NCBI GenBank assembly: GCA_024689365.1 | Contig: JAILDQ010000212.1 | Coordinates: 1 to 35,786 of the forward strand | DNA length: 35,786 nucleotides | Reading direction: 5' to 3' | Source of the DNA: Treponema sp. | GTDB lineage: Bacteria; Spirochaetota; Spirochaetia; Treponematales; Treponemataceae | Shown here: in pieces, positions 5,899 through 30,534 of the stretch | Layout of the letters: each line of letters begins with the position of its first letter | Position numbering within the stretch: position 1 is the first letter of the stretch | Translations under genes and position numbers: made by a program | The notes under the pieces: model-generated | The model's database searches: none | What the model saw: the letters and a program-made list of their open reading frames with translations, nothing else | What the model was told of the DNA's origin: nothing

Positions 5899-6339
5899 AT
5901 GATGTATAATCAGGCTTACAACGCTTACAAAAAGGCTAGTGTCAAGACCGCAAGCCAAGCGGAACTCGTTGTTCTTCTTTATGAGGGAGCCGTGAAGAAA
6001 CTCACTTCCGCGTCTTCAAAATTTACGCCAGACGGAAAACTGCCAGTCGCAAATATAGAGGCTTTCAGCGCGGACGTTTTGCGCGCTCAGGAAATCATCA
6101 CGGAACTTCAGGTTTCCCTCGACATGGATAAAGGCGGAGAAATCGCAAGAAATTTGATGTCCTTGTATCTTTTCTTCAACGACCAGCTTAGAAGCGCGAA
6201 CATTTCAAAGAACAAGGATAAAATCGATTCAGTTTTAAATATGATGAGCCAGTTGACTGACTCATGGCGCCAAGCTGCGGAAACCTCAAACGGCAGCGTT
6301 TCCACTCAAAGCCAGCCGGCGTTGAACATTGAGGGGTGA
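5899..6339 (+). CDS. fliS: flagellar export chaperone FliS
   Basis: 146 aa, YNAYKKASVKTASQAELVVLLYEGAVKKL typical FliS N-terminus; start at ATG 5899 or 5902. Confidence 0.88.
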   Translation: MMYNQAYNAYKKASVKTASQAELVVLLYEGAVKKLTSASSKFTPDGKLPVANIEAFSADVLRAQEIITELQVSLDMDKGGEIARNLMSLYLFFNDQLRSANISKNKDKIDSVLNMMSQLTDSWRQAAETSNGSVSTQSQPALNIEG

Positions 6340-6343
6340 CTTT

Positions 6344-6814
6344 ATGGAAGAGATTACAAAAGAAGAGCTTGAAGAGCGCGTGGCCTTGCTGAAAAAATTC
6401 CGCAGCTTGCTCCAACAGCAGCGCGACAAATTCCGCGAGTACCTCAATGTTTTGGAAAAGCAAGAAACTTCAATCACTACAGAAAACGCCGACGCTCTTT
6501 TGGCCCACACAGAGCTTGAGCAACAGGTTGTTTCAAACATAATGAACTTGCAAAAGGTCATCGTGCCGATGTCCGACTTGTACAAGGCCCGCTCTGGCGA
6601 AGAAAAGGAAGAGTCGATTACGGCCCTTCAAAACGATTTGTCCAGCTTGCAGAATCAAGTTCTCGCGCAAAACAAAAAGAACCGCGACTTGCTCAGAAGC
6701 CACATCGACAGCATAAGGACTCAAATCGCGTCTTTCAGAAATCCCTACAAGAGCCGCCGTTCAGTTTACGCCGAAAAGAATTCCACTGGCTCAATGGTCG
6801 CGGTGGAAGCGTAA
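6344..6814 (+). CDS. flgN: FlgN-family flagellar chaperone
   Basis: Coiled-coil protein MEEITKEELEERVALLKKFRSLLQQQRDKFREYLNVLEKQE..., directly after fliS; start moved to the ATG at 6344. Confidence 0.65.
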   Translation: MEEITKEELEERVALLKKFRSLLQQQRDKFREYLNVLEKQETSITTENADALLAHTELEQQVVSNIMNLQKVIVPMSDLYKARSGEEKEESITALQNDLSSLQNQVLAQNKKNRDLLRSHIDSIRTQIASFRNPYKSRRSVYAEKNSTGSMVAVEA

Positions 6815-6857
6815 AAGCGGCAAAAATTATAGGATGAAAGCCTAAAAGCGTTTGTTA

Positions 6858-6909
6858 GCCGCATAAGCGGCAACATTCGCGCTCGCATCCAAACTCGCGC
6901 GAACAGCCG
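6858..6909 (+). repeat. copy A of dispersed two-hairpin element
   Basis: GCCGCATAAGCGGCAACATTCGCGCTCGCATCCAAACTCGCGCGAACAGCCG; 49/52 identical to the reverse complement of 29247-29298. Confidence 0.8.
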
Positions 6910-6960
6910 TACGTCTTAAACGTTGTTTCGAGCGGATTTTTCAATCGAACGCTCGGAGGA

Positions 6961-6985
6961 AGCCCGCGGATGCGGGCTTTTTTTG
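6961..6985 (+). terminator. intrinsic terminator
   Basis: AGCCCGC GGAT GCGGGCT followed by a T run. Confidence 0.85.
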
Positions 6986-7059: not shown

Positions 7060-8370
7060 ATGGAAAAGTTCTTTCAGCTAAAAGAAAGAAACAGTACCGT
7101 TAGCAAGGAAGTTGTTGGCGGCATTACAACCTTCTTGGCCATGGCTTACATCTTGGCCGTTAACCCAGGAATCTTGAGCGAATCTGGATTGCCTTGGGGC
7201 GGAGTGTTCACCGCGACTGCAATTTCCGCCGCGATCGCTACATTGGTAATGGCCTTGCTAGCCAACTTGCCGGTTGCCTTGGCCCCTGGCTTGGGTCTCA
7301 ACGCTTTCTTCACTTACAGCGTTGTTTTGGGAATGGGCTGCTCTTACCAGTTGGCATTGACAGCTGTTTTGCTTGAAGGAATTTTGTTCATTGTTTTGAG
7401 CCTTTGCGGAGTTCGCGAAGCAATCGTTAAGTCAATTCCTGACGGAGTGAAGAAAGCCGTCGCGGTCGGAATCGGTTTGTTCATCGCGATTATCGGCTTG
7501 GTAAACGCCGGAATCTGTTCAACAAAAACAGGAACATTCATCGGCTTTGTAAACTTTGCCGGCGACAACCACTCGGCCATCGTAGCCGTTCTTGGCCTTA
7601 TCATTACAATCATCCTTTACACCCTTAACGTAAAGGGCTCAATCTTGATTGGAATCGTAATCACAACAATCATCGGAATCCCATTCGGCGTTACGACTGT
7701 TCCGGAAAACTTCAAGCCATTCTCAACTCCGGAAGCTCCTGTAATGTTCGCCTTTGACTTTGGCGGAATCGGAAAAGATATCGGAAAGTTCTTCGTAATC
7801 TTCTTCACATTCTTGTTCACAGATATGTTTGACACAATCGGAACTTTGCTTGGCGTTGCCGAACAAGGAAATCTCAAGGACGAAAACGGCGACATCAAGA
7901 ACGCCAAGGGCGCTTTGCTTGCCGACGCTGTTGGAACCGTTGCCGGCGCCTGCTTGGGAACTTCTACAGTAACTTCATTCGTTGAGTCTTCATCTGGCGT
8001 TGCCGCCGGAGCCCGCACTGGTTTGGCCAGCGTTGTTACAGCCATCTTCTTCTTGCTCGCCCTTTTCTTGAGCCCGCTCTTTGGACTTATTCCTTCCGCC
8101 GCCACAGCTCCCGCTTTGATCTTCGTCGGATATCTTATGATGAAGAGCGTTGTCGGAATCAAGTTTGACGATCCTACAGAAGGAATCCCGGCGTTCATCA
8201 CAATCATGACAATGCCTTTTGCCTACTCAATTTCAAAGGGAATTATGTTCGGAATCATCACTTACGTAATTGCCAAAGTTGCCGGAAAGAAAGCCAAGGA
8301 AATCCCCGTTGTTACTTGGATCTTGGCCGTTGTATTCCTTGCCGACCTTATTTTCGAAGCGTGCAAATAA
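7060..8370 (+). CDS. NCS2 (AzgA-like) family nucleobase permease
   Basis: MEKFFQLKERNSTVSKEVVGGITTFLAMAYILAVNPGILSESG...GLGLNAFFTYSVVLGMG; start moved from 6970 to 7060 because of the promoter, SD and terminator upstream. Confidence 0.9.
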   Translation: MEKFFQLKERNSTVSKEVVGGITTFLAMAYILAVNPGILSESGLPWGGVFTATAISAAIATLVMALLANLPVALAPGLGLNAFFTYSVVLGMGCSYQLALTAVLLEGILFIVLSLCGVREAIVKSIPDGVKKAVAVGIGLFIAIIGLVNAGICSTKTGTFIGFVNFAGDNHSAIVAVLGLIITIILYTLNVKGSILIGIVITTIIGIPFGVTTVPENFKPFSTPEAPVMFAFDFGGIGKDIGKFFVIFFTFLFTDMFDTIGTLLGVAEQGNLKDENGDIKNAKGALLADAVGTVAGACLGTSTVTSFVESSSGVAAGARTGLASVVTAIFFLLALFLSPLFGLIPSAATAPALIFVGYLMMKSVVGIKFDDPTEGIPAFITIMTMPFAYSISKGIMFGIITYVIAKVAGKKAKEIPVVTWILAVVFLADLIFEACK

Positions 8371-8410
8371 GCGGCGAGATTTAAGTTTTGTAAGACCTTA
8401 AGCGGTTGGC

Positions 8411-8450
8411 GCCGCATGAGCGGCAACAATCGCGCTCGCTGCCAAGCGAG
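8411..8450 (+). repeat. copy B (diverged) of the dispersed element, in the permease 3'UTR
   Basis: GCCGCATGAGCGGCAACAATCGCGCTCGC shares 27/29 positions with copy A, then CTCGCT GCCA AGCGAG hairpin. Confidence 0.6.
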
Positions 8451-8463
8451 ATTTAAGGCATGA

Positions 8464-8490
8464 AAAAGCCCCGCGATTTGCGGGGCTTTT
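8464..8490. terminator. bidirectional intrinsic terminator between convergent genes
   Basis: AAAAGCCCCGC GATTT GCGGGGCTTTT. Confidence 0.9.
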
Positions 8491-8510
8491 CTTTTGGCAC
8501 GTGGCCAGAA

Positions 8511-28758: not shown

Positions 28759-28863
28759 AATAATTTCCGCTCCAAAGCGAAAGCGCGGCGAAGCGAAGAC
28801 GGGAGGCTCCGTCTCTTTTTTTCCGTCGCTGGGACCCGCAATTTTAGCCCGCTTTTTTACTTT
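28759..28863. repeat. partial copy of the foldback right arm
   Basis: CAAAGCGAAAGCGCGGCGAAGCGAAGACGGGAGGCTCCGTCTCTTTTTTTCCGTCGCTGGGACCCGC...AGCCCGCTTTTTTACTTT, nearly the same as 28982-29087. Confidence 0.8.
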
Positions 28864-28875
28864 CAAATCATTCTA

Positions 28876-29092
28876 ATTAAAAAAAATAAACGGGCAAAAT
28901 AAAAGGCGGGACGCAGGAAAAAAAGAGTGGAAGGACCCGTCAGCAAGCAAGCGAGCGGCGGCGCTCGAAAGAGCGCAAGTGAATGATTTCCATTTCAAAG
29001 CGAAAGCGCTGCGAAGCGAAGACGGGAGGCTCCGTCTCTTTTTTTTCGTCGCTGGGACCCGCCATTACAAGCCCGCTTTTTTACTTTTTTTA
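28876..29092. repeat. nested imperfect inverted repeat (foldback element)
   Basis: CGGGC 28891-28895/GCCCG 29071-29075; GGCGGG 28905-28910/CCCGCC 29058-29063; GAAAAAAAGAG/CTCTTTTTTTTC; CCCGTC/GACGGG; internal GCGCTC-GAAA-GAGCGC 28961-28976. Confidence 0.65.
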
Positions 29093-29340
29093 AACGATTG
29101 ACCTCGCCGCTAGTTCAGGTAAAAAAATACCTCGGCTGTTTGCGCGAGTTAGGATGCGAGCGCAAATGTTGCCGCTTATGCGGCGTCTAGCAATTATGGT
29201 TTTGCTAACGATTGACCTCGCCGCTAGTTCGGGTAAAAAAATACGCCGGCTGTTTGCGCGAGTTGGGATGCGAGCGCAAATGTTGCCGCTTATGCGGCGT
29301 CTAACAATTATGGTTTTGCTAACGATTGACCTCGCCGCTA
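29093..29340 (-). repeat. 114-bp tandem repeat, 2 full units plus 20 bp; carries copies C1/C2 of the dispersed element
   Basis: AACGATTGACCTCGCCGCTA begins at 29093, 29207 and 29321 (exact 114-bp period). Confidence 0.95.
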
Positions 29341-29361: not shown

Positions 29362-30534
29362 ATGAAAGAACTTGAACTTAAATACGGATGCAATCCAAAC
29401 CAAAAGCCCGCTCGGGTTTTCGTTGAGTCTGGCGATTTGCCTATAACTGTTGTGAACGGCCGTCCTGGCTACATCAATTTGCTTGACGCCTTGAACGGCT
29501 GGCAGCTTGTAAAGGAATTAAAGGAAGCCACTGGACTTCCAGCCGCCGCTTCATTCAAGCACGTTTCACCGGCAGGCGCCGCTGTAGGGCTTCCTCTTAG
29601 CGACACTCTCAAAGAGATTTACTTTACCGACGACGTTGAGCTTACGCCTCTTGCCTCTGCCTATGCCCGCGCTCGCGGCGCCGACAGAATGTCAAGCTTT
29701 GGAGACTTCATTTCCCTTAGCGACAAATGCGACAAGGCCACCGCGCTTTTGATTAAAAAAGAAGTTTCTGACGGAATCATCGCGCCAGGCTATGACGACG
29801 ACGCTTTGGAAATTTTAAAGGCCAAGAAAAAGGGCGGTTATTGCGTGATTCAAATTGACCCAAATTATCTTCCGCCTGAGCTTGAAAAAAAGCAAGTTTT
29901 TGGAGTCACCTTTGAGCAGGGCCACAACTTCATCAAGTTGGACGAAGAATGCTTGAAGAACGTTGTCACAAAGAAAAAGGATTTTACAAGCGAGCAAAAG
30001 CGCGACTTGATTATTTCTTTGATTGTGTTGAAGTACACCCAGTCAAACAGCGTTTGCTACGTAAAGGACGGACAGGCGATTGGAATCGGCGCGGGCCAGC
30101 AAAGCCGCGTTCACTGCACGCGCTTGGCGGGCGACAAGGCTGACAAGTGGTGGCTAAGGCAAAGCCCGAAAGTTTTGGGCCTTAAATTTGTTCCAAACAT
30201 TAAGAGAGCCGACCGCGACAACGCGATTGACGTTTACACCGGAAACGAGTATATGGACGTTCTTGCCGAAGGAAAATGGCAGAACATTTTTGCCGAAAAG
30301 CCCAGCGTCTTTACCGAGCAAGAAAAGGCTGAATGGATTTCAAAAAATAAAGACGTCGCTGTTGGAAGCGACGCCTTCTTTCCCTTTAGCGACAACGTTG
30401 AGCGAGCCTATAAGAGCGGCGTGAATGTAATCGCGCAGCCAGGCGGCTCTGTTCGCGACGACGCGGTGATTGATTCCTGCGACGACCACGGAATTGCCAT
30501 GGCCTTTACAGGAATCCGTTTGTTCCACCACTAA
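29362..30534 (+). CDS. phosphoribosylaminoimidazolecarboxamide (AICAR) formyltransferase, stand-alone PurH-like
   Basis: MKELELKYGCNPNQKPARVF, AASFKHVSPAGAAVG, YTQSNSVCYVKDGQAIGIGAGQQSRVHCTRLAGDKA, DAFFPFSDNVERA, GVNVIAQPGGSVRDD; ATG 29362 preferred. Confidence 0.92.
   Translation: MKELELKYGCNPNQKPARVFVESGDLPITVVNGRPGYINLLDALNGWQLVKELKEATGLPAAASFKHVSPAGAAVGLPLSDTLKEIYFTDDVELTPLASAYARARGADRMSSFGDFISLSDKCDKATALLIKKEVSDGIIAPGYDDDALEILKAKKKGGYCVIQIDPNYLPPELEKKQVFGVTFEQGHNFIKLDEECLKNVVTKKKDFTSEQKRDLIISLIVLKYTQSNSVCYVKDGQAIGIGAGQQSRVHCTRLAGDKADKWWLRQSPKVLGLKFVPNIKRADRDNAIDVYTGNEYMDVLAEGKWQNIFAEKPSVFTEQEKAEWISKNKDVAVGSDAFFPFSDNVERAYKSGVNVIAQPGGSVRDDAVIDSCDDHGIAMAFTGIRLFHH

Follow-up and report, generated by a model that had tools for sequence, protein, structure and literature searches.

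Two hairpins that recur within a short stretch of a Treponema genome raise the question of whether they belong to a structured RNA, to a mobile repeat, or to both. The stretch analyzed here (the window) comprises 35,786 nt of contig JAILDQ010000212.1. The original prediction described in it a dispersed 52-nt core that could be either a 3'-UTR RNA or a REP-like element. The broad part of that proposal stood –many copies, strong covariation, and sense placement after stop codons– but a REP in the strict sense was unsupported, since the carriers lack a Y1 transposase. We consider the best explanation, with a probability of roughly 60%, to be a new lineage-restricted family of REP/ERIC/MITE-like repeats: non-autonomous, intergenic, mobile or formerly mobile, and probably acting in mRNA.

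Repeat unit and fold

The 52-nt core is located at 6858-6909 on the plus strand and, inverted, at 29133-29184 and 29247-29298 (94% complementary), as predicted. It is not the whole unit, which measures about 95 nt (about 95-110 bp across the family) and starts some 43 nt upstream with TAGCGGC. The unit consists of two adjacent hairpins, P1 and P2, and its consensus reads T-AGCGGC - 34-36 nt - GCCGC ATRA GCSGC AACA NNCGCGC TC GC-loop-GC TC GCGCGNN CA GCSG - TA. In P1, the 5' AGCGGC pairs with GCCGC and closes a loop of 34-36 nt. P2 (GCSGC..AACA..NNCGCGC / GCGCGNN..CA..GCSG) is long and imperfect, and its internal loops are fixed.

The second hairpin of the original prediction was drawn correctly, and its exchange of C-G and T-A is real, being one among many such changes. 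Its first hairpin, GCCGC-ATAA-GCGGC, was rejected by the pair counts: its middle pair is disrupted in 19 of 39 copies. The partner of GCCGC is the far 5' GCGGC; that of the second GCGGC is the 3' GCCG, and these last two flip in step (GCSGC/GCSG). With the P1/P2 fold, 96.9% of cells are paired in the 39 aligned copies. The covariation is strong: nine pairs changed on both sides (vs. 4.4 in shuffles), and the score was 0.205 (vs. 0.017-0.059 with the partners slid). Pair 56-95 is G-C in 20 copies and C-G in 19, with none broken, and some copies carry a two-sided change in P1, from GGC/GCC to GCC/GGC. The folded structure of the element is kept by paired changes.

At single-copy level, RNA folding was modestly better than shuffles (z from -1.0 to -3.0), and the consensus fold was not always returned. 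Both internal loops (AACA/CA and TC/TC), like the ATRA joint, are unpaired and near constant, so the stems have not merely been homogenized into perfect palindromes. The P1 loop is A-rich, of near-fixed length, and contains a conserved GCAAGCC.AAAA; we found conserved sequence only and no consistent pairing within it.

The stems of 124 distinct copies, taken from several species, comprise 1984 cells, of which 1979 were Watson-Crick, one was G-T, and four were A-C, in a parse by a motif pattern that restricts the letters at some stem positions while admitting both G-T and A-C in P2b. For an RNA helix under selection, it is unusual to see almost no G-U intermediates, and this hints at a DNA-level constraint or at en-bloc copying. 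The pattern would be expected of a hairpin in DNA, or of two arms changing together, and not of a slowly drifting RNA helix. These near-perfect stems favor the main rival of our reading, a purely DNA-level selfish repeat, which we regard as possible but doubtful. Here, a hairpin-recognizing enzyme would insert the element strand-specifically at gene-junction motifs, the sense orientation would stem from the target alone, and the element would have no role as RNA.

An insert of about 60 nt (TTACGGCGTTGCCGTTTTGCG...GAGCGGGCAA) was observed at one point within P2 in several copies (L153, L156, L166, and L210 of the near-complete genome G207, and L056 and L062 of G035), representing an element within an element.

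Copies in the window

The covariance model retrieved four copies in the window, three full and one damaged. Copy A (6815-6910, plus strand) matched the model with 100.2 bits and is supported by covariation. Its P1 is formed by the 5' arm AGCGGC (6816-6821), the loop (6822-6857), and the 3' arm GCCGC (6858-6862). After the ATAA joint (6863-6866) come P2a GCGGC (6867-6871), the internal loop AACA (6872-6875), P2b TTCGCGC (6876-6882) paired with GCGCGAA (6897-6903), and then CA (6904-6905) and GCCG (6906-6909). It begins right after the TAA stop (6812-6814) of a FlgN-like gene (6329-6814, plus strand), whose FlgN match of 25.2 bits lies under Pfam's cut-off of 30.5.

Copy B, which had been placed at 8411, is an element copy on the plus strand that extends from 8369 to about 8450, as judged from its sequence. 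Its first A is overlapped by the stop codon (8368-8370) of a xanthine/uracil permease gene (7060-8370, plus strand). The 5' arm of P1, its 3' arm, and the start of P2 are intact, and the 3' arm of P2 has been lost or replaced. The model match of 43.4 bits (8369-8484) was completed only by borrowing a GC-rich hairpin downstream, whereas the full copies of the window reach 90-100 bits.

Both copies were said to lie in sense after a stop codon and directly before an intrinsic terminator. The stop codons do abut both. The GC-rich hairpins with T-runs downstream (6959-6985 and 8466-8493) were read by eye, and the terminator scanner listed neither. A second repeat (GTTGTTTCGAGCGGATTTTTCAATCGAACGCTCGGAGG) occupies 6923-6958, between copy A and the terminator-like hairpin; repeats related to it fill the same orthologous places in other species, where they stand instead of the main element.

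The other two copies form a tandem pair on the minus strand with a 114-nt period, situated between divergent genes and not behind a stop codon. Copy 1 (29246-29340; 90.6 bits) has TTTGCGC/GCGCAAA as P2b, and copy 2 (29132-29226; 91.6 bits) belongs to repeat family D1. The neighboring purH-like gene (AICARFT/IMPCHase; 29362-30534, plus strand) diverges from them. The pair is closed by a 20-nt repeat of the element start, TAGCGGCGAGGTCAATCGTT (29093-29112, minus strand; repeat family D9), which repeats the first 20 nt of the pair itself. Since sister species have a similar native sequence in front of purH, an insertion or duplication at this site probably used that repeat. Element-start sequence that resembles native DNA and is repeated at the far side also fits the DNA-level selfish repeat. 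A 100-nt direct repeat (GAAGCGAAGACGGGAGGCTCCGTCTC...GTCGCTGGGACCCGC) at 28759-28858 and 28982-29081 (86% identical) adjoins the tandem pair.

Distribution among genomes

Further copies, as anticipated, were found both in the same genome and in congeners. At up to two mismatches, an 18-nt core matched 19 times in the 2.5-Mb genome of the window and its reversed control did not match at all, so the sequence is repeated far beyond chance. One of the 19 matches (C283:8865) is coding sequence that is conserved as coding in G207. Many copies were present in 10 of 200 congeneric genomes, and two others had single weak matches. These 10 carriers coincide exactly with the 10 genomes highest in PurH identity to the window (93-100%; the next has 86%). 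A scan of 396 genomes from 94 genera of the order retrieved this clade alone, plus one weak match. The family is restricted to one clade, with about 10 to 95 copies per genome: 95 model matches in G207 (about 54 of them above 70 bits), 50-58 in G129, G180, and G190, and 10-13 in G136, G191, and G108.

Searching Rfam 15 gave no match over the gathering score in the window and chance-level matches only in six loci. A limited literature search found no described element of this kind for Treponema. In genome G000, contig C276 (L007, L035, and L045) is 98-99.5% identical to G207 and the other contigs about 80-89%, which could be due to assembly contamination or to recent transfer.

Placement relative to genes

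We analyzed placement in 1.94 Mb of G207, calling genes with a simple script based on codon usage. We could place 60 intergenic copies whose 5' arm is intact; three more overlapped a called gene. Co-directional genes flank 47 of the 60, and all 47 read in sense. Eight lie behind a sense gene with a converging neighbor, four before a sense gene with a diverging neighbor, and one has only a sense downstream neighbor in view. None of the 60 is antisense to both neighbors; the original prediction had named random orientation inside genes as what would speak against it. The element is strictly sense with its flanking genes.

In 34 of the 55 copies with an upstream gene in sense, the stop codon of that gene is positioned between -20 and +5 nt relative to where the element starts, and in 18 of the 55 it is a TAG to which the element contributes the AG. 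A start codon lies no more than 45 nt downstream in 34 of 52, and the 3' flank consensus TAYTGTTNGGAGG is a Shine-Dalgarno sequence. The predicted 3'-UTR placement thus proved right as to the sense orientation and the stop codons; as to terminators it did not, since copies lie mainly between a stop codon and the Shine-Dalgarno sequence of the next gene.

This sense-only placement beside stop codons and Shine-Dalgarno sequences, together with the conserved unpaired ATRA, AACA/CA, and GCAAGCC.AAAA, could also suggest a native cis-regulatory RNA that is not mobile, such as an attenuator, a riboswitch-like leader, or a 3'-UTR element. We consider it improbable: the copies are scattered beside unrelated genes, occur in tandem, are absent from orthologous sites in sister species, and have no Rfam match.

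In our preferred reading of a non-autonomous repeat family, most copies would have come to lie between a stop codon and the Shine-Dalgarno sequence that follows, reading with the flanking genes. This placement would make them part of intercistronic or 3'-UTR RNA. Their spread would depend on an enzyme acting in trans, probably on the DNA hairpin form. By analogy with ERIC and Correia/NEMIS, the hairpins in mRNA would probably be structures for processing, stability, or separating translation.

A more specific version, which we hold only tentatively, is an operon-junction element. This would be a mobile cassette that opens with a TAG stop of its own, ends just before or with its own Shine-Dalgarno sequence, and is inserted only in sense between cistrons. 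If true, it would spread through operons without breaking translation and would leave a structured RNA at each junction, through an enzyme of a kind not recognized for REP-like repeats.

Empty sites and conservation in place

Copies of the other carriers, once mapped onto G207, revealed many clean sites where the element is present in one genome and absent from the orthologous place in another. Empty sites with the upstream stop and the downstream gene intact were those of L098, L106, L071, L082, L087, and L261. For example, G191 reads ...ACGGAACGG-TAGCGGC...GCGGTATTGTTAGGAAAG...ATGG and G207 reads ...ACGGAACGATAAATATGG. At the sites of the window (both sides of the permease and upstream of purH), the element is absent in the nine other carriers, one permease flank of G035 being unreadable. 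Some G207 sites hold remnants of the element; thus, loss occurs too, and some absences could be losses.

Inspection of three copies by eye had suggested a target-site duplication of fixed length, which the test rejected. Flank repeats of at least 9 nt were present in only a minority (11 of 134 copies, vs. a shuffled mean of 1.1), with lengths of 9-15, and several are tandem footprints. The fixed-length duplication of MITEs is therefore missing, and as for terminal inverted repeats, the ends TAGCGGC / GCSGTA share only an imperfect match of 5-6 nt.

Among 21 orthologous pairs, eight elements were 96.8-100% identical while their flanks were 84-97%. In other pairs, differences between the elements reached about 20%, one such site having flanks 99% identical. 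From these sequence comparisons, some copies are strongly held in place and others seem to have been replaced as blocks.

Both behaviors bear on the DNA-level selfish repeat. Block replacement fits it, as with L007/L161, where the flanks are >99% identical and the element copies differ (80%), and so does the repeated Shine-Dalgarno sequence that flanks some copies. Against it, the element is 100% identical in L089/L157 and 98.9% in L259/L180, while the flanking coding DNA is 84-88% and 84-89%, respectively. Orthologous copies more conserved than the coding DNA beside them suggest a role in place. Besides, no helper enzyme was found: the search for Y1 transposases and integron integrases retrieved none tied to the element.

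Relation to known repeat families

The REP families moved by a RAYT (Y1) transposase were a natural candidate, being dispersed, extragenic, and hairpin-forming, with reported complementary changes and clade specificity (PMC2817692). The element shares these features, but it is a longer unit of two hairpins, without the GTAG/GTGG head and without inverted pairs: its consensus starts with TAGCGGC, and its tandems are direct, sense-only arrays and not alternating BIMEs. Moreover, PF01797 (RAYT/Y1) at E<=1e-5 had no match in the 10 carriers, which are 82-99% complete, vs. 6 of 25 non-carriers, and the positive control matched in E. coli and others. A strict RAYT-associated REP was therefore rejected, and we find this origin very improbable.

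The attC sites of a chromosomal integron, perhaps a decayed one, would also be structured, in sense, and between a stop codon and the next gene, as in cassettes. This option was pursued given that integron integrases are full length in two of the 10 carriers (L299 on C1 of G085, and L297/L298 on C20 of G136); IntI-like C-terminal fragments occur in four (G180, G035, G190, and G108). We rejected it, and rate it the least probable reading of all, because the consensus has no RYYYAAC...GTTRRRY pair of core boxes and the cassette-like repeats beside the G085 integrase (TGTCGGCTACGAACCTTTGTTATG), the real attC-like repeats of the genus, differ from the element. G207, the richest carrier, has no integron integrase over the cut-off, only Xer-like and other partial integrase matches, and the neighbors of the element are ordinary chromosomal genes.

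ERIC and Correia/NEMIS are known to alter mRNA stability or processing (PMC2229807; PMC3049150). ERIC is an imperfect palindrome, short and intergenic, that lies in transcribed regions and is transcribed together with its neighbors; its effect on mRNA depends on orientation (PMC2229807; PMC3049150). Correia/NEMIS, from Neisseria, is a non-autonomous repeat of about 105-155 bp whose RNA hairpin was proposed to be processed (PMC2229807). In pneumococcus, BOX, RUP, and SPRITE are small interspersed structured repeats, and BOX supplies the stop codons of genes in 36 cases (PMC3049150).

The element resembles the enterobacterial ERIC/IRU as a short intergenic palindromic repeat and, judging by its placement, would likewise be transcribed. 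Unlike them, it has two separate hairpins, is strictly sense, and is carried by another lineage; we know of no sequence relation between the two. As with Correia/NEMIS, it is short, probably non-autonomous, and hairpin-forming, but it lacks a general target duplication and long terminal inverted repeats. Like BOX, it supplies gene stops and belongs among small interspersed structured repeats, although it is not modular (A-B-C) and is sense-only.

Some groups of bacteria are rich in small structured repeats. This family provides an unusually clean test case: its hundreds of copies are spread over about 10 sister species, orthologous sites occur both filled and empty in large numbers, the sense bias is complete, and compensatory change is strong. 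It is relevant to the questions of how elements of this type move in the absence of RAYT and whether they become parts of mRNAs. It is also a warning for genome annotation, in that some stop codons come from the element and its copies border on ribosome-binding sites.

Finally, a larger palindromic repeat family (GCCGCGYAAGCGGCAG..AATAGTTWCAAGRCGCA) was observed in G207 at L157, L158, and L167, with about 20 copies in that genome.
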